Assembly: GCA_017410455.1 (NCBI GenBank)
Contig: JAFQQT010000023.1
Coordinates: forward strand, 1 to 64,000
Direction: 5' to 3'
Length of the DNA: 64,000 nt
Origin: Clostridia bacterium
GTDB taxonomy: Bacteria > Bacillota > Clostridia > Christensenellales > Aristaeellaceae
The position numbers were made by a program, and so were the translations under genes. Positions 6,358-50,448 of the stretch are shown here, piece by piece; the first letter of the stretch is position 1, and every line of letters begins with the position of its first letter. The notes under the pieces are model-generated. The model saw nothing but the letters and a program-made list of their open reading frames with translations. It made no database searches and was not told the DNA's origin.

Positions 6358-6404
6358 TCATTTTGGGGGCACAGGAGGGACGCAACTTTTTTTGCGTGTT
6401 CCCC

Positions 6405-25760: not shown

Positions 25761-25808
25761 ATCATACCACAGGGAACCCGTGCGAATCCTCCGGAAAAAG
25801 TTGTGAAC
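25761..25808 (-). promoter_or_regulatory. GTTCACAA-type promoter (site 1)
   Basis: Minus strand GTTCACAACTTTTT with the -10 TATGAT beginning 42 bases after the first G. The -35 region is poor (GGATTC). The T run may double as the tail of the terminator of the next gene. Confidence 0.6.
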
Positions 25809-40592: not shown

Positions 40593-43500
40593 TTATTCGG
40601 GGAGGGTGGGGCGGGGGACGGTTTTGAGGCGCCAGTCGGTGACTTTGCACTGGCCGTCACCGTTACTGCCCACCGCCACGACGGTGCCGTCTGCGCGGAG
40701 ACCGACGGTGTGGGAGAAACCCGCAGCGATGGCGACGATATCCGACCAGGCCGAGGTGTTGCACTGGCCGAAAGCGTTATAGCCCACCGCCACGACGGTG
40801 CCGTCTGCGCGGAGACCGACGGTGTGGAAGAAACCCGCAGCGATGGCGACGATATCCGACCAGGCCGAGGTGTTGCACTGGCCGTCATCTTTCCTGCCCA
40901 CCGCCACGACGGTGCCGTCCGCGCGGAGACCAACGGTATGGTGGTCCCCCGCAGCGATGGCGACGACGTCCGACCATGCGGAGGTGTTGCGCTGGCCGAA
41001 AGCGTCAGAGCCCACCGCCACGACGGTGCCGTCCGCGCGGAGACCGACGGTGTGGTAGTTACCCGCAGCGATGGCGACGATGTTCGACCAGGAGGAGGTG
41101 TTGCACTGGCCTAAATCGTTATAACCTACCGTCACGACGGTGCCGTCCGCGCGGAGACCGACGGTCAGGTCGGACCCCGCAGCGATGGCGACGATGTCCG
41201 ACCATGTGGAGGTGTTGCACTGGCCGTCAGAGTTTCTGCCCACCGCCACGACGGTGCCATCTGCGCGGAGGCCGACGGTGTGGAAGTCACTCGCAGCGAT
41301 GGCGATGATGTCCGACCATGCGGAGGTGTTGCACTGGCCGTCAGAGTTTCTGCCCACCGCCACGACGGTACCGTCTGCGCGGAGACCAACGGTGTAGTAA
41401 TCACCCGCAGCGATGGTGTTCTGAACAGCCATGCCCTCCCAAAGCTCCATGCTGCGAGAACGGGCGTCTTTATAATCGCCGAGTTTTCCGAATGCAATGG
41501 CAGCGAGTGCTGTTTCGCCATCTTCTTCCAACGCCACGGCGGCGTTGTACTTGCCCTCCATGATAGCAGTGTTGATCTGCGCCTTACTGTCTTTATAGCC
41601 GTCCAGGGCTTTAAAGGCAGCGATGGCAGCTTCATAGTCGCCGTTTTCCATTAGGGCCACAGCGGCGTTGTACTTGCCCTCCATGATGGCAGTGTTGCAA
41701 TTGTCAATCTGTGCCTTACTGTCTTTATAGCGGTCCATGGCTTCAAATGCAGCGACGGCGGCCTCATAGTCGCCGCTTTCCATCAGCGCCATAGCGGCAT
41801 TGTACTTGCTCTCCATGATGGCAGTATTGCAGCTGTCAATCTGTGCCTGGCTGTCCTTATATCCGTCCAGGGCTTTAAAGGCAGCGATGGCAGCTTCATA
41901 GTCGCCGTTTTCCATTAGGGCCACAGCGGCGTTGTATTTCCCATTGGGGATGATCACCTGCGTCACCAACAGCACCACTGCCACCACCGCAGCCAGCACC
42001 GCCGTGCCGATGCCGATGCGCCGCTGGGCGGCCTTCTTTGCGGCTGCACGGGCGGCTTCCTTCTCTGCGGCCTGTGCCTTCAGCTCCTCGATCCTCCGCT
42101 GGCAGGTTTCGACCTGCTGGTCGGCGTCCCTCCAGCCCGGAATGGTCTGGAACATGCGGATAGCCTCGCGGAGCGTTGCTTCGGTTGGATGGAGAGCTAT
42201 GGAGCTGTGGGCTTCGTCGTAGATGCTGTTTTTGCGTGTTGCTTCGGCCTTCTCGGCGCAAAGCTCGGCCTGTTTAGCAGCGTCCCTCCAGCCATTCAGG
42301 GCCTCAAATTGTTTCTTCGCGGCGGTGAAGTCCTGCTCTGTATAGGCGGCGGCAAGGGCCTGTTCGGCTCGCCGGTACAGGAAATCCATCCGGGCGTCGT
42401 CGCAGCCCTGCGCGCGCCGGGCTGCGTCTTTCCATCCGCCCAGGGCCTCAAACTGCTTCTTTGCGTCGATGAAATCCCGCTCGGTCTTGGCGTTGGTGAG
42501 GGCCTGTTCCGCGCTTTGGTAGGCGGCTTCCTTCGCTGTGTTGTCGTTGCGCTCATTGATATACGCGATCATCCCCCGCAGCTCCCCTGCCAGCTCCTCA
42601 TCCGCGAAGCGCAGGGCTTTGGCATAGTTCGGGTTCCTGTCGAATGGCTGCGCCTGATCCTTCAGCTTCTCCTGCCGGGTCACATGCAGCGCCGCCATCA
42701 GCTTGCCCACATACGCCCTGGCGTTCTCCGGGGCAATGTCCAGCACGCGCTCGCAGTACTCGTCCGCGCTCTTCCAGTCCCCGTCCTCCAGGAACAGGGC
42801 AACGCGGCGCAGCAGGGCCTCCGTGGCGGGGGCGGCGGGCTGGGCGGTGGGGGTGACAGGGGCGACCGGGGCGGGGGCGGCGGGCTTCTCCTCCGCGCCC
42901 ACCACCTTCCGGATGCCGCGCACCAGATCCTGCACAAAGCCGATGCGGCTCATGTCATAGCCCTGCAGCACCGCCAGCTCGTCGGGCATGTCGTAGGGAT
43001 CCATGTCCCGGTAGCAGGGGATCAGCAGACGGCTGCGGTCGTGCTTCATCAGCGCGTGGAAGCGGCTCCACTCGTTGCGCACCCACACGGCGTTCAGGTG
43101 CTCGGGCTTCGTTCCCACCACCACCATCACCCGCGCCGACTGCAGGGCGGAGAAGATGTAGGGCTCATACGCCACGCCGGGCTTGTCCTCCAGCGTGATG
43201 CGCGCGAAAAACACCCGCAGGCCGTGGTCGGTCAGCTGGTAGTAGATATCCTGCGCCAGCTGGCTGTCACGGGTGCGCTGGCCGTCGGCGCCCATCTCCT
43301 TGTAGCAGAGGAAGACGTCGAAGGGCTCCGTGCTCCGGCTGATGGCGAGGATCCCCCGGAGGACCTCGTCGATCTGCTCCGCGCGCTGCTGATACACGGC
43401 GCGGGCAGCGTCATCGGCGTGGGCCAGGGCGGCGAGGGTATCGACATCCTCCAGGAAGCTGTCGTAGCTGGCGCGGTGGCAGGTAGGCAGGTACGCGCCG

Positions 43501-43787
43501 GAGGCGTCGTCCTGCACATACTCAATGCCGAAGCGGCACAGCGCGCAGCACCAGTGGGCCTCGGCGTTGCCCTCGTCCTCGCGGACGATGCGCTCAAACA
43601 CCGTCAGCGCCTTGTCGAACTCGCCGATGCGCCGGAAGTGATTGCCCCGGTTGAAGGCGGCCACATGGTTCTCGTCCGTCACGCGGGGCAGGGTGATCTG
43701 GCTGCCGCAGAAACGGCATACCCCCAGGGATTTCCCTGCGGGCAGCTCATTCTTTCCGCCGCAGTTTGTGCATTCCAGTACGGCCAT
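40593..43787 (-). CDS. Zinc-ribbon/TIR/repeat/beta-propeller membrane protein
   Basis: 1064 residues. In order: zinc ribbon (CTNCGG...CRFCGS, 7-28), helical repeat region, TIR domain about 155-295 (FDVFLCYKEM, YEPYIFSALQSARVMVVVGT), helical repeats (AKKQFEALNGWRDAA), a membrane segment about 592-615, four TPR-like 44-residue repeats (KYNAAVALMENGDYEAAI), and seven 38-residue RCC1-like units (TVGLRADGTVVAVGR) forming a predicted seven-bladed propeller. Glu239 in VWVRNEWSRF is placed like the catalytic Glu of TIR NADases. Start ATG 43787 has GGAGG six bases upstream; an ATG at 43793 abuts the RBS. A sensor propeller coupled to an NAD-cleaving effector is inferred. Confidence 0.85.
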   Translation of the reverse strand: MAVLECTNCGGKNELPAGKSLGVCRFCGSQITLPRVTDENHVAAFNRGNHFRRIGEFDKALTVFERIVREDEGNAEAHWCCALCRFGIEYVQDDASGAYLPTCHRASYDSFLEDVDTLAALAHADDAARAVYQQRAEQIDEVLRGILAISRSTEPFDVFLCYKEMGADGQRTRDSQLAQDIYYQLTDHGLRVFFARITLEDKPGVAYEPYIFSALQSARVMVVVGTKPEHLNAVWVRNEWSRFHALMKHDRSRLLIPCYRDMDPYDMPDELAVLQGYDMSRIGFVQDLVRGIRKVVGAEEKPAAPAPVAPVTPTAQPAAPATEALLRRVALFLEDGDWKSADEYCERVLDIAPENARAYVGKLMAALHVTRQEKLKDQAQPFDRNPNYAKALRFADEELAGELRGMIAYINERNDNTAKEAAYQSAEQALTNAKTERDFIDAKKQFEALGGWKDAARRAQGCDDARMDFLYRRAEQALAAAYTEQDFTAAKKQFEALNGWRDAAKQAELCAEKAEATRKNSIYDEAHSSIALHPTEATLREAIRMFQTIPGWRDADQQVETCQRRIEELKAQAAEKEAARAAAKKAAQRRIGIGTAVLAAVVAVVLLVTQVIIPNGKYNAAVALMENGDYEAAIAAFKALDGYKDSQAQIDSCNTAIMESKYNAAMALMESGDYEAAVAAFEAMDRYKDSKAQIDNCNTAIMEGKYNAAVALMENGDYEAAIAAFKALDGYKDSKAQINTAIMEGKYNAAVALEEDGETALAAIAFGKLGDYKDARSRSMELWEGMAVQNTIAAGDYYTVGLRADGTVVAVGRNSDGQCNTSAWSDIIAIAASDFHTVGLRADGTVVAVGRNSDGQCNTSTWSDIVAIAAGSDLTVGLRADGTVVTVGYNDLGQCNTSSWSNIVAIAAGNYHTVGLRADGTVVAVGSDAFGQRNTSAWSDVVAIAAGDHHTVGLRADGTVVAVGRKDDGQCNTSAWSDIVAIAAGFFHTVGLRADGTVVAVGYNAFGQCNTSAWSDIVAIAAGFSHTVGLRADGTVVAVGSNGDGQCKVTDWRLKTVPRPTLPE
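40615..41420 (-). repeat. Seven tandem 114-base repeats (RCC1-like units)
   Basis: Near-identical DNA repeats encode the 38-residue propeller units of the TIR protein; differences are mostly in the exposed codons after VAVG and before HTVGL. Copy number could change by slippage or recombination. Confidence 0.9.
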
Positions 43788-43876
43788 GGACATCCTCCGT
43801 TCACGTCGTTTGTGCTGATGGCATTATCATACCACATCTGTCACAGGATGACAAGGCCGGGGCGGAGCGTCAGCCC

Positions 43877-46797: not shown

Positions 46798-47970
46798 TTA
46801 CTCCACAACGCGCAGCACGATGGCTTCTTCCATGTGCTCGCCGCTCCTGCTGTACACGGGTACCAGCTGCATGTTCTCCACCAGAGCATCCAGCTTGCAG
46901 CTGACGCCGACGGTCAGCTGGCCGTCCACGCCGGAGGAGACCCATTCCGTGCCGCCGTCCGTCACCCGCTGGTCGCCGATGTAGAAGCGCCACTCGCGGA
47001 TGTAATCGATGTCATCGGGGTTTTCCCATGTGCGCTCGATCTCCACCCAGCTCTGGGGACAGGTCACCACCACTTCACCCTTGACGTCGATGGCGCTGGC
47101 GTTCAGGTTCGCCACTGCCGTCCAGCCCTCGCCGGAGGCTTCGCCGGTCAGCGGCACGCCGCCGGTCTTGTCCCGCTGCACGGTGAAGGGGTGCCATGCG
47201 GCGCCGGTACGCTCGCCACGGCTGAGGTAACAGCCGGTCTCGTCCTGGTACCAGGTGTTGTGGGTGGTGAAGGTACCCAGCAGGAAGGTGACCTCATCTG
47301 CCGCCAGCTCCTCAGGCACGACGCACTCCTTCCAGCCCACCAGCGTGCCATTCTCGGTCAGATACATTTCGCCGCCGATGATGTCCAGGTACGTCTCGCC
47401 GATCTGCAGGCCGTCATGGACATTGACAGAATGGGAGGTTGCCCAGCGGGGCGCGCTTCCGTCCAGGTGCGCGACCATCAGGTCGTGACTGGCGCTGTCG
47501 CTGCCGAAGGTCTGGCCGTACACCTCACCCGGCAGCTCCCAGTCCCAGGCGTCCACCGCAGGCTTGCCCTCGCCCAGCTCAACCTGGTCAAAGGGGCCTT
47601 CCACCGTGTAGGAAATAAACACGCGCTCACCGTCATAATAGGCCTGTCCGATGGTGACGGTCACGCCCTCCTCGGTCACGATGGACAGGTTCACATCCGC
47701 CGAGACCCTTTCCAGGCCGGGCAAGCGGGCGTCCACCGCGCCACTTTCGCTCATCTGCCCGAACAGCCCCAGTCCCGCCGCCAGCGCAGCACCTGCCATC
47801 AGCATGGTCAGCAGCATCGCAAAAATAACGCTCACAGAAATTTTCTTCTTCACTTGACTTTCTCCTCTCGCCTGATTCAGCACAGCGGCGCGGACCGAGG
47901 GCAGGTCACCCGCGCCGGAGAGGCAGTCGTCGATGGCCGCACGAACGGCGTCGTTGGTTATTTCTTTCAT
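46798..47970 (-). CDS. DUF4179-type anti-sigma-like membrane protein
   Basis: 390 residues. A short cytoplasmic part (1-41), one membrane segment about 44-66 (ISVSVIFAMLLTMLMAGAALAA), and a large external domain rich in beta strands. It matches the DUF4179 type of anti-sigma factor encoded beside ECF sigma genes in Clostridia. The cytoplasmic part would hold the sigma factor; the external domain would sense envelope stress. Its ATG overlaps the sigma stop codon (ATGA), so the pair is translationally coupled. Confidence 0.82.
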   Translation of the reverse strand: MKEITNDAVRAAIDDCLSGAGDLPSVRAAVLNQARGESQVKKKISVSVIFAMLLTMLMAGAALAAGLGLFGQMSESGAVDARLPGLERVSADVNLSIVTEEGVTVTIGQAYYDGERVFISYTVEGPFDQVELGEGKPAVDAWDWELPGEVYGQTFGSDSASHDLMVAHLDGSAPRWATSHSVNVHDGLQIGETYLDIIGGEMYLTENGTLVGWKECVVPEELAADEVTFLLGTFTTHNTWYQDETGCYLSRGERTGAAWHPFTVQRDKTGGVPLTGEASGEGWTAVANLNASAIDVKGEVVVTCPQSWVEIERTWENPDDIDYIREWRFYIGDQRVTDGGTEWVSSGVDGQLTVGVSCKLDALVENMQLVPVYSRSGEHMEEAIVLRVVE

Positions 47971-48518
47971 GCGTCCTCCTCCCCCAGCGCGCTGGCCAGT
48001 GCAGCCCGCGCCTTTTTCAATCGGTTCATCACGGTGGGCGGGGTGATCCCCAGCGCCCTGGCCGTGTCGCGTATGGTCAGCCCCTGATCGCAGTGCAGCA
48101 GCACCACTTCGCGCTGCTTCGCCGGCAGGGACAGGATGGCCGCCGTCAGCGCGATATGCTCCGCGCTGGGCGGCGCCACGGGCAGCGGCAGGTCCTCGAT
48201 GGCCGTGGCCTTGTCCACATGCCGGAACCAGCCGCCGCGGGTCATGTCGCGGCAGGTGTTGACGGCAATGCGCATCAGCCAGGTCTTCTCGCTCGCCTCG
48301 CCCCTGAAGCCATCCATCTTCCGGTACGCCTTCAGGAATGTGTCCTGCACCGCGTCCTGCGCCAGCTGCACATCATGCAGATACATCAGGCACAGGCGCA
48401 GCACCGCCTTTTCATGGCTGAGCATCAGCTGGTTCAGCCATTCCTCCCGGCTGACGGACGCATCCGCCCTGCCGGTCTTCGTGCAGCTGCAGCTGTCCGG
48501 GCCCTTGACAGCATACAT
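47967..48518 (-). CDS. ECF RNA polymerase sigma factor
   Basis: 183 residues. Region 2: LRLCLMYLHDVQLAQDAVQDTFLKAYRKMDGFRGEA.. with the usual DAxQDTF; region 4 HTH: LLHCDQGLTIRDTARALGITPPTVMNRLKKARAAL. RBS AAAGGAGGTGA before ATG 48518. It is preceded by its own ECF-type promoter, implying autoregulation, and followed by its DUF4179 anti-sigma partner. Confidence 0.93.
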   Translation of the reverse strand: MYAVKGPDSCSCTKTGRADASVSREEWLNQLMLSHEKAVLRLCLMYLHDVQLAQDAVQDTFLKAYRKMDGFRGEASEKTWLMRIAVNTCRDMTRGGWFRHVDKATAIEDLPLPVAPPSAEHIALTAAILSLPAKQREVVLLHCDQGLTIRDTARALGITPPTVMNRLKKARAALASALGEEDA

Positions 48519-48546
48519 GCGGCGCTCACCTCCTTTCACCTTTACA

Positions 48547-48572
48547 GACGAATCACCGCCGGAAATGTTAAA
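48547..48572 (-). promoter_or_regulatory. ECF-type autoregulated promoter
   Basis: Minus strand TTTAAC, 16 bases, CGTC, the arrangement of Bacillus/Clostridia ECF promoters (AAC and CGTC). Confidence 0.7.
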
Positions 48573-48575
48573 CGG

Positions 48576-48622
48576 GTTCACAATCTTTTTTTGAGGATTC
48601 CCTGCGCAGAATATCGTAAGAT
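48576..48622 (+). promoter_or_regulatory. GTTCACAA-type promoter of the Y RNA (site 3)
   Basis: GTTCACAATC and a T7 run, then -10 TAAGAT (48617-48622) beginning 41 bases after the first G. The start point near 48629 coincides with the 5' arm of the Y RNA stem. Confidence 0.7.
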
Positions 48623-48626
48623 GATG

Positions 48627-48785
48627 CTGCACACAACGCTTCCCTGACTGCAACTCTTTGCGTGTGTAAGCAGGGGATCGGGGTTCGAGTCCCCGTCGTG
48701 CCGCGTCAAGCGGAGCGGTAGCTCAATGGCAGAGCACCTTAAAATGGGAAGTGGTGCAGGAGTCGGCGGCCGCCGGCTCCTTTTT
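48627..48785 (+). ncRNA. Y-RNA-like ncRNA (permuted tRNA mimic)
   Basis: The ends pair: CTGCAC (48627-48632) with GTGCAG (48754-48759) and CTTCCC (48639-48644) with GGGAAG (48746-48751), with an internal loop ACAACG/TG, as in Ro60-binding Y RNA stems. The inside holds tRNA arms in permuted order: T arm CGGGG-TTCGAGT-CCCCG (48679-48695), an acceptor-like helix 48696-48704 / 48710-48718 closed by loop GTCAA (with one mismatch), then D arm GCTC-AATGGCA-GAGC (48721-48735). An intrinsic terminator follows (48760-48785, 10-bp stem, T5). Bacterial YrlA RNAs have this layout. The gene for a TROVE/vWA protein starts 190 bases downstream. Confidence 0.85.
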
Positions 48786-48827
48786 CGTGCACGGGCTGAA
48801 GTCACAGTCGCCCCGGAAACGAATTCC

Positions 48828-48874
48828 GTTCACAACTTTTTTTGCTGCTTTCCACGCCCAAAACGTGATAGTAT
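48828..48874 (+). promoter_or_regulatory. GTTCACAA-type promoter of the TROVE gene (site 4)
   Basis: GTTCACAAC and a T7 run, then -10 TAGTAT (48869-48874) beginning 41 bases after the first G. Same layout as site 3. Confidence 0.65.
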
Positions 48875-48972
48875 ATGTCCGTAAGCTTCCCTTACAGCAA
48901 TCCACAGGATGAAAAATGGGAAGTAAAACCGCTGAAATGCATCTGAAATATACGAAGAAGGAGGTCACACAC

Positions 48973-50448
48973 ATGGATTTCAGCCAGCTTCTCCGCCGTC
49001 AGGCACAGTTCACCCACACCACCAATGGCGCGCCCGCCCTCATGTCCACGGGCAACGCGCTGCTCAACATGTTCTCCACCGTCGCTGCCTGCCGCGGCCG
49101 TACGGAAAAGGAGATCATCCACTTCCTGGACGCTGCATGGCAGGCCGATCCCCTGGGCGCGCTGCGCTGCATGTTCTATGTGCGTGACGTGCGCGGCGGC
49201 CAGGGCGAGCGCGACATCTTCCGCGCGATGCTCAACCACGCCGCGACCCGGTACACCGAGGCCCTGCGCCCCAACGTGCACCTCATCCCCGAGTACGGCC
49301 GCTGGGATGACATGTACTTCCTCATCGGCACGCCCCTGGAGGAGGACATGTGGAAGCTCGTCCGCGCCCAGCTGGACGTGGATATTGAGCAGATGGAAGC
49401 CGGCAAGCCCGTCTCCCTGCTCGCCAAGTGGCTGAAGAAGGCCAACTCCCAGAGCGAGACCACCAAGCGCCTGGGCATCTACACCGCCCAGAAGCTGGGC
49501 ATGTCCGTCTACGACTACAAGCGCGTTACCGCCCGCCTGCGCAAGCACATGGGCGTGGTCGAGATCGCCATGTCCGCCGGCGACTGGGGCTCCATCGCCT
49601 ATGAGGGCACCCCCTCCCGCGCGATGATGATCTACCGCAAGGCCTTCCGCCTGCACGATCAGGAGCGCTACGAGGCGTACCTGGCGGCCGTGGCGGCGGG
49701 CGAGAGGAAGATCAACGCCTCCACCCTCTACCCCTACGACATCGTGGAGAAATACCTCCGCGACCAGGGCGATGCGACCCTGGAGGCCCAGTGGAAGGCG
49801 CTGCCCGACTATGTGCAGGATGGCGACAACATCCTGGTGATGGCGGACGTATCCGGCTCCATGTGTGGCCGGCCCATGGCATCCTCCATCGCGCTGGCGA
49901 TGTACTTCGCCAAGCGCTGCCAGGGCGCGTACCACAACCTGTTCCTGACCTTCTCCGAGCAGCCCGCGCTGGTGGAGCTCCAGGGCAACACCCTGGAAGA
50001 GCGCATCTCCTTCCTGCACAGCGCCCCCTGGGGCATGAACACCGACTTCATGGCCGCGATGAAGCTGATCCTGGACGTCGCCGTGCGCAACCATGTGCCC
50101 CAGAAGCAGCTGCCCCGCGCGCTGGTTGTCGTGACCGACATGCAGTTCGACGCCGCCACCCGCCCCGGCCAGATGAAGGAGACCTTCACCGAGCTGTGCC
50201 AGGCGATGTTCGCTGCCCAGGGCTACACCGCCCCCGTGCTGGTCTTCTGGAACGTGAACTCCACCTCCGACGTGTTCCACGCTGACGCGGCCAGCTCCGG
50301 CATCGTGCTGGTGTCCGGCCAGAGCGCATCCACGTTCGAGAACATCCTGCGCTTCCTGCGCGGCGAGGACATCCTCACCCCGGTGGACTTCATGTACCAG
50401 GTGCTGGGCGGCGAGCGCTACGCCGCCATCACCCTGCCCGCGGGCTGA
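48973..50448 (+). CDS. TROVE/vWA (Ro60-like, DUF2828-type) RNA-binding protein
   Basis: 491 residues. An N-terminal helical repeat region of the TROVE type (about 1-280: FYVRDVRGGQGERDIFRAML, IPEYGRWDDMYFL, KPVSLLAKWL) is followed by a von Willebrand A domain with the MIDAS motif VMADVSGSMCG (about 288-298) and later TDMQFD. Ro60/Rsr proteins form a ring that binds misfolded RNA and Y RNA and can feed RNA to nucleases. The immediate upstream Y-RNA-like gene supports the same role. Similarity is closest to the DUF2828 branch, as judged by eye. ATG 48973 follows AAGGAGGTC. Confidence 0.88.
   Translation: MDFSQLLRRQAQFTHTTNGAPALMSTGNALLNMFSTVAACRGRTEKEIIHFLDAAWQADPLGALRCMFYVRDVRGGQGERDIFRAMLNHAATRYTEALRPNVHLIPEYGRWDDMYFLIGTPLEEDMWKLVRAQLDVDIEQMEAGKPVSLLAKWLKKANSQSETTKRLGIYTAQKLGMSVYDYKRVTARLRKHMGVVEIAMSAGDWGSIAYEGTPSRAMMIYRKAFRLHDQERYEAYLAAVAAGERKINASTLYPYDIVEKYLRDQGDATLEAQWKALPDYVQDGDNILVMADVSGSMCGRPMASSIALAMYFAKRCQGAYHNLFLTFSEQPALVELQGNTLEERISFLHSAPWGMNTDFMAAMKLILDVAVRNHVPQKQLPRALVVVTDMQFDAATRPGQMKETFTELCQAMFAAQGYTAPVLVFWNVNSTSDVFHADAASSGIVLVSGQSASTFENILRFLRGEDILTPVDFMYQVLGGERYAAITLPAG

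Follow-up and report, generated by a model that had tools for sequence, protein, structure and literature searches.

Stem-ACAGCAA hairpins with exchangeable, partly tRNA-like modules accompany DUF2828 genes: a probable second Ro60–Y RNA system

The RNA and protein genes of the locus

The window analysed here is a 64,000-nucleotide stretch of a Clostridia bacterium (positions 1 to 64,000 of contig JAFQQT010000023.1). Within it, a predicted Y-RNA-like noncoding RNA gene is followed on the same strand by a gene for a DUF2828/DUF7788 protein with a modelled Ro60-like fold. Ro60/Rsr proteins bind the basal stem of Y RNA, and YrlA mimics tRNA through a permuted module. The locus has the following features, to which a copy in trans on another contig (C76) of the same genome is added.

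48576..48592, plus strand: promoter-associated motif GTTCACAATCTTTTTTT; a related 15-mer precedes DUF2828/RNA arrays in relatives
48617..48622, plus: weak -10-like hexamer TAAGAT, identified by eye
48627..48785, plus: predicted Y-RNA-like noncoding RNA gene, with a permuted tRNA-like module within a basal stem, and terminator
48627..48632 and 48754-48759, plus: 5' strand (CTGCAC) and 3' strand (GTGCAG) of the outer basal stem, part of which is paired in the minimum-energy fold
48639..48644 and 48746-48751, plus: 5' strand (CTTCCC) and 3' strand (GGGAAG) of the inner basal stem, the putative protein-binding stem
48647..48653, plus: ACTGCAA, a variant of the family motif ACAGCAA
48679..48695, plus: T arm CGGGGTTCGAGTCCCCG, from YrlA match and covariation
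48698..48716, plus: acceptor-like hairpin GTGCCGC-GTCAA-GCGGAGC, the joined acceptor strands, from YrlA match and covariation
48721..48735, plus: D arm GCTC-AATGGCA-GAGC, from YrlA match and covariation
48741-48745, plus: AAAAT, the A-rich side of the internal loop, just before the 3' strands of both basal stems (48746..48759)
48758..48785, plus: intrinsic terminator, a 10-pair stem and then a T run, sharing two bases with the outer stem
48828..48843, plus: second copy of the promoter-associated motif, GTTCACAACTTTTTTT, with 0 mismatches
48886..48923, plus: second, short stem-ACAGCAA hairpin, CTTCCCTTACAGCAA..GGGAAG, within what is presumably the DUF2828 mRNA leader
48958-48964, plus: ribosome-binding site of the DUF2828 gene
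48973..50448, plus: DUF2828/DUF7788 gene (491 aa; predicted Ro60-like fold and vWA domain, the latter with an intact DxSGSM at residues 292-297)
C76:20429-20444, minus: third copy, stem-ACTGCAA, in trans; exact GCTTCCCTNACWGCAA

A first-pass annotation of the sequence had described the RNA gene as a unit whose ends pair in two blocks, CTGCAC/GTGCAG and CTTCCC/GGGAAG, around an interior holding a T arm, an acceptor-like helix with a five-base loop and a D arm, in that permuted order. Both blocks are present at the named positions and all three arms could be located; the acceptor-like hairpin comprises 7 positions, including one mismatch and one G-U pair, closed by the loop GTCAA. When a 431-base stretch was searched with Rfam, YrlA was the top match (25.4 bits, E 0.0027, model positions 1-114), in the permuted order, followed by tRNA at 21.7 bits. 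The YrlA covariance-model search proposed with that annotation thus returned the expected family as best match, but at a score far below its curated threshold (RF02553; 25.4 versus 69 bits). The window RNA has the YrlA layout, in which a permuted T arm, closed acceptor and D arm stand on a basal stem. The short hairpin at 48886-48923 was absent from the first-pass description.

The adjacent gene had been read as encoding a TROVE-type helical domain plus a vWA domain, in a DUF2828-like rather than classical Ro60 protein. The second half of this description agrees with the domain matches, since the product exceeds the Pfam cut-offs of DUF2828 (PF11443; 127.2 bits versus 29) and DUF7788 (PF25043; 134.2 versus 27.1), while Pfam TROVE (PF05731) has no match in it at E ≤ 0.001. 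Likewise, TROVE is absent at E ≤ 1 among the nine Pfam families listed for 17 family members. The first half holds for the vWA domain and for the Ro60-like fold, but not for the TROVE family itself. A structural model of the window protein aligns with Ro60/Rsr structures over most of its length, with 11-16% identity in the structure alignments, and in the model the helical and vWA domains adopt the Ro60 arrangement. The DUF2828 family and Ro60/Rsr also share a PHROG. Sequence searches found no relative among solved structures (one unrelated match, at E 0.73), and PADLOC and NCBIfam gave nothing at E ≤ 0.001. As judged from the modelled fold, the DUF2828 protein is a distant relative of Ro60.

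Stem-ACAGCAA hairpins beside DUF2828 genes

In genomes and viral contigs alike, one to several hairpins occur beside the genes of this family. They have one core (a covarying stem, ACAGCAA on the 5' side and an A-rich 3' side) and exchangeable modules, some of them tRNA-like. The protein occurs in 20 of 150 genomes of the window's family (its own genome included, one match being marginal) and in 0 of 6 other listed genomes of its genus, so that its distribution is patchy. In the phylum, Pfam DUF2828 was found in 4 of 299 genomes, the window's own among them, and TROVE in 6 of 299. The 'gut Firmicute' label attached to the host in the first pass derives from named relatives only. Confirmed relatives number at least 573 in the genome collection and at least 546 in the viral collection, and the loci analysed are the best 80 of each. 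Among phage records, 675 of 50,697 carry a DUF2828-family match, including FelixO1, Listeria P100, Campylobacter phages and cluster L mycobacteriophages.

The repeated hairpins upstream of DUF2828 begin with a stem (for example AAGGCACG/CGTGCCTT), followed by ACAGCAA, a variable interior and an A-rich end. In 137 of 181 DUF2828 loci, the 800 bases upstream of the gene contain at least one such element in the orientation of the gene (307 elements, 409 motif copies; the 181 are 184 minus the partial matches L020, L023 and L024, and two with fewer than 100 upstream bases went unscanned). In control scans, the opposite strand gave 4 loci and each of seven permuted motifs 2-12; the same scan gave 7 loci within the gene, 22 downstream and 8 at 2.0-2.8 kb upstream. 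Once near-duplicates were removed, 162 loci with 100 or more upstream bases remained; 125 of them have elements, versus 4 on the opposite strand and 2-10 for permuted motifs. From the 323 distinct elements at 134 loci, 69 short ones from genome-contig loci remained after redundancy removal, and 64 of these were aligned, five near-copies or badly registered elements being omitted. Two-sided pair changes occur at 8 of 9 stem positions, in 129 cells versus 38.6 in shuffles, counts that are inflated because the elements had been preselected for stems of at least 7 pairs.

A covariance model, R1, was built from these 64 genome-locus elements and applied to 72 of the 80 viral-contig loci, held out for the purpose (the other eight were duplicates, one locus cut at the gene start, and L120, which is the same stretch as L042). 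All 173 matches at E ≤ 0.1 lie on the gene's (plus) strand. At E ≤ 0.01 there were 147 matches in 56 of the 72 loci, 142 of them with exact CAGCAA; 113 lie upstream (94 within 1.5 kb), 34 downstream and none inside the gene. The held-out stems covary as well, with 281 cells versus 87.2 on an alignment fitted to R1. In 12 whole genomes, for eleven of which scoring was confined to 150 first-look candidates, R1 gave 25 matches at E ≤ 0.01 in 11 genomes: 23 are just upstream of DUF2828 on the same strand, and two are about 5 kb past the gene end in one genome (G151). A further 20 loci gave 35 matches at E ≤ 3, each of them oriented like the gene (L196 not turned), including FelixO1, P100, CP30A, 6ec, Gabriela, FADO and EfsSzw-1, with a single match (E 2) in Synechococcus phage B23; none was found at E ≤ 3 in Vibrio phage R11Z, Fusobacterium phage Fnu1, L001, L193, L197 or L198. 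The two hairpins of FelixO1 (L204 4879-4938 and 5333-5402; 25.9 and 20.6 bits) are interspersed with ordinary tRNA genes in the tRNA cluster of the phage, just 3' of DUF2828.

A search that started from the RNA, with one exact form of the element in the viral collection, found 69 stretches, which overlap the protein-first loci in at least 8 contigs and include two on one contig. A DUF2828 gene lies within 42 of these stretches, on the same strand in every case (judged by the first match per stretch), with the element upstream in 31 of the 42. It lies elsewhere in the record for 18 of the other 27, so that 60 of the 69 stretches belong to records with the gene, and of the nine without a detected DUF2828 gene six are fragments shorter than 23 kb.

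In the window's own 3.3-Mb genome, exact GCTTCCCTNACWGCAA occurs at three sites, namely the two window copies and the one on contig C76, whereas with one or two mismatches allowed the pattern does not exceed chance (12 sites versus 15 for the control). The C76 copy has a promoter-like start, GTTCACAACCTTTTTTTGAGGATTCC, as in the window, the closing AATGGGAAG, a different loop and a terminator-like hairpin; a scan for the T-loop motif did not find it in that loop. Near this copy, on the other strand, lies a T-box leader (101 bits; L231 1627-1844). In one clade of the window's family (L008, L012, L013, L018, L019, L021 and L022), the region up to about 450 bases upstream of DUF2828 holds another conserved, structured-looking leader, made of repeated GGCTGAAATGCC-type hairpins by eye, rather than clear ACAGCAA elements; the three of these leaders that were searched (L008, L012, L013) had no Rfam match at E ≤ 5.

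Layouts of the tRNA-like modules, and surrounding features

A five-pair T arm is present inside 34 of the 323 elements, as compared with a mean of 0.42 and a maximum of 2 in 50 shuffles of the interiors, and is missing from the other 289. The tRNA-like modules come in three layouts. The first is the permuted order of T arm, closed acceptor and D arm, seen in the window RNA, L016, L025 (two copies), L143, L170 and L182. In these seven RNAs, 96.4% of cells in the T, acceptor and D helices are paired, 12 of 16 pairs have changed on both sides, and none of 500 shuffles was as good on any of five measures. The YrlA scores of the relatives range from 29.4 to 41.4 bits, all below 69, the two Blautia copies (L025) scoring 41.4 and 37.4 bits. 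Covariation in homologous loci, the absence of which had been named beforehand as refuting the annotation, was found both in the stems and in the tRNA-like arms.

In a second layout, found by eye in L057, L101 and L091, for example, the normal order of D, anticodon and T arms is kept, and the stem takes the acceptor's place. In the third, the hairpin, turned inside out, takes the place of the anticodon arm in an otherwise complete tRNA. This inside-out motif occurs in 59 of 200 loci (75 cases), versus 5-11 loci for five control motifs, and in 30 of the 75 cases, near-identical pairs from related contigs included, the acceptor and T arm are in place. Independently of this motif scan, the Rfam tRNA model gave 28 'tRNAs' of 110-127 bases above threshold in 22 loci, and C[ATG]GCAA falls in one column in 27 of the 28. 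Pairing in these composites is 99.5% in the acceptor, 92.3% in the D arm, 100% in the T arm and 70.4% in the hairpin, and two-sided changes are seen at 21 of 23 pairs; the finder behind these figures was itself the tRNA model, which favours paired arms. One candidate composite, L112:1991-2117, was rejected: it has no such motif and probably represents a normal tRNA that carries an insert. The same viral contig has a HEARO RNA (139 bits; L112 108-350) about 3 kb ahead of its DUF2828 gene. The composite in Synechococcus phage B23 carries the annotation tRNA-Undet-???.

The first and third layouts are circular permutants of each other. The stem-ACAGCAA hairpin is the common core and the permuted tRNA module one among several modules carried on it, which takes the proposed extension of the Ro60–Y RNA pairing further than the first pass had claimed.

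The promoter-associated 15-mer looks like a common regulatory or promoter element. Allowing up to three mismatches, it was found at 12 of 29 loci scanned (the window locus, with two sites, counted once). In the window's own genome GTTCRCAACTTTTTT occurs at 21 sites with up to two mismatches, versus 3 for the reversed pattern, and precedes several genes and RNAs, often about 30 bases ahead of a -10-like box. The window has four sites, at 48576-48592, 48828-48843, 25794-25808 (minus strand) and 6378-6392, and others lie on contigs C48, C68, C76, C83 and C89. The idea that it is specific to the RNA system was dropped, as it also precedes other genes, such as a phosphofructokinase-like frame (by eye). 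One two-mismatch site lies ahead of a RecA-like reading frame, again by eye. On the minus strand, divergent from the RNA unit, 46798-48596 holds an ECF-type sigma factor gene and then a DUF4179 gene, and 40593-43793 a 1066-aa frame that is TIR-domain-like by eye, with tandem RCC1-like repeats at its end.

A second Ro60–Y RNA system, its rivals and its known relatives

We put the probability at roughly 0.8 that the window locus is a member of a second Ro60–Y RNA system, in which a Ro60-like ring works with its own Y-like RNAs. The repeated occurrence of Y-RNA-like RNAs beside DUF2828 genes, in many gut bacteria and phages, lends comparative support to the Ro60–Y RNA system proposed in the first pass. 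Three observations weigh against it. Of the promoter and terminator originally described, the terminator (48758-48785) stands, but a consensus promoter scan found no sigma-70-like site upstream of the window RNA, leaving the TAAGAT seen by eye. The minimum-energy fold of the unit has only a moderate advantage over shuffled sequences (z -2.59, equalled by 2 of 200). It retains the basal stems but draws the tRNA-like arms uncleanly, so that these arms rest on covariation rather than on the fold. Finally, R1 has no useful match in the window or its own genome, where the copies are divergent: the window stem differs in sequence, the window RNAs do not reach R1 membership (E ≤ 0.01), and the best match in the window, the short hairpin at 48886-48923, is weak (10.4 bits, E 2.6, model positions 8-51). 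By pattern, defined as a stem of at least 6 pairs, C[AT]GCAA within 3 bases and an A-rich 3' side, upstream of DUF2828 on the gene's strand, two window copies belong to the family, with a third copy in trans. The window RNAs are a divergent branch of it, linked through motif, stem, promoter motif, position and module, not through R1.

By analogy with Rsr and YrlA, the hairpins would be made as RNAs, and the ring-shaped protein would bind the stem and the ACAGCAA/A-rich internal loop, as Ro60/Rsr bind the basal stem of Y RNA. The stem would serve as the protein's handle and the module as the working part, whose protruding tRNA-like portion might either function as a gate or, like an adaptor, recruit tRNA-handling enzymes or a nuclease to the ring. 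Such a ribonucleoprotein (RNP) might be used in RNA repair or decay during stress or infection. Through the short mRNA-leader copy at 48886-48923, the protein could monitor how much of it is free and hold its own mRNA in check. Since the putative protein-binding stem occupies the position of the anticodon arm in both, the window's permuted RNA and the hairpin-bearing complete tRNAs may be one molecule opened at different points. For a broader scheme the odds seem to us about even: DUF2828 would be a parallel Ro60 lineage with its own stem-ACAGCAA code and module arrays, in which some complete tRNAs had their anticodon arm exchanged for a Ro-binding stem and YrlA-type permuted RNAs are their circular permutants, and phage RNPs would redirect, titrate or gate host tRNA-handling enzymes or nucleases.

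Other readings of the hairpins have to be weighed. They could be solely cis-acting leader elements through which the protein or another factor represses its own mRNA, with tRNA-like modules as T-box-like sensors and no separate Y RNA. This would suit the 94 of 147 held-out matches that lie within 1.5 kb upstream on the same strand, as well as the hairpin in the window's presumed mRNA leader (48886-48923). However, the main window RNA has its own terminator; an exact copy of stem and motif on another contig has a promoter-like motif and a terminator-like hairpin of its own; 34 of the 147 matches are downstream of the gene; in 18 of the 69 RNA-first stretches the gene is elsewhere in the record; and complete tRNA folds are implausible as leaders. 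We regard this reading as improbable. A little less probable again is that the RNAs are real but serve another nuclease, tRNA enzyme or phage factor, DUF2828 being merely a frequent neighbour. While three of the nine RNA-first stretches whose records have no detected DUF2828 lie in records of 75-192 kb, the other six are the short fragments, the association is seen in genomes and viral contigs alike, and the DUF2828 protein has, in its model, the fold of a known Y RNA binder.

Least likely of all appears a reading in which the tRNA-like parts represent tRNA genes on phage-derived DNA that have decayed or been interrupted, the hairpin being a mobile insertion into tRNAs. Ordinary tRNA genes do occur within the same arrays, and the hairpin does occupy the anticodon region of otherwise complete tRNAs. 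Nevertheless, two-sided changes have kept the acceptor, D and T helices of the composites (with a finder model that favours paired arms), the motif stands at one column in 27 of 28, 289 of 323 elements have no T arm at all, and the permuted forms require a new order of parts rather than decay.

If the locus does belong to a second Ro60–Y RNA system, DUF2828 and DUF7788, families with no assigned function, gain a testable partner and mechanism, and the permuted YrlA fold could be derived in a simple way from unpermuted tRNAs with a stem for an anticodon arm. The composite tRNAs would also account for puzzling annotations, for instance the tRNA-Undet-??? in Synechococcus phage B23. Because 675 of 50,697 phage records carry the gene, these ideas can be tested in laboratory phages.

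Among known systems, tmRNA likewise combines tRNA mimicry with a longer RNA, but no Rfam tmRNA match exceeded the threshold, L016 reaching 18.9 versus 47 bits. Closer are the phage proteins already annotated as 'Ro-like RNA binding protein', for example in cluster L mycobacteriophages, which are members of the DUF2828 family; tblastn gives about 37-40% identity over 97-99%. The annotations of ten phage regions name no RNA partner of this kind, one being hidden as tRNA-Undet-???, whereas hairpins were detected here beside 7 of these 10 genes at E ≤ 0.01. In the open-licence PubMed Central literature we found no report linking DUF2828 with Ro60, the DUF2828 papers being plant studies as judged from their listing. 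Priority is nevertheless uncertain because several phages are reported to have YrlA (PMC7765460), and the phage side may thus be partly in print already.

The likeness to Ro60/Rsr of the TROVE type lies in the modelled fold over most of the protein's length, the DxSGSM motif and the common PHROG; the DUF2828 protein differs in having no Pfam TROVE match, 11-16% structure-alignment identity and Pfam families of its own. Functional studies of bacterial Ro60–Y RNA cover few species, according to the portion consulted of one source (PMC7790460), and an excerpt of another describes modification of the tRNA-like part of YrlA by DusA and TruB and a link of Rsr/YrlA to PNPase (PMC8394870). The DUF2828-linked RNAs resemble YrlA (RF02553) in having the permuted T arm, closed acceptor and D arm on a basal stem beside a gene of predicted Ro60 fold. 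They differ in scoring only 25-41 bits against a threshold of 69, in having the ACAGCAA/A-rich core, in occurring as several copies at a locus and in coming in two additional tRNA layouts. The six TROVE loci of the phylum, a small set with fragmentary genes in L212 and L217, provide a contrast. R1 had no convincing match there (one weak, L212, 14.1 bits, E 0.088, on the opposite strand), YrlA matched four of the six at 27.9-39.9 bits, all below threshold, and by eye the RNAs upstream of four TROVE genes (L213-L216) have CGAGGCG..CTTCG..CCTCG. Because of these R1 and YrlA matches and stem sequences, the DUF2828 and TROVE families seem, on the evidence of six loci, to pair with two stem codes while having the tRNA-like module in common. 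The same module on a different stem and protein would allow the protein-bound part to be separated from the module's role.
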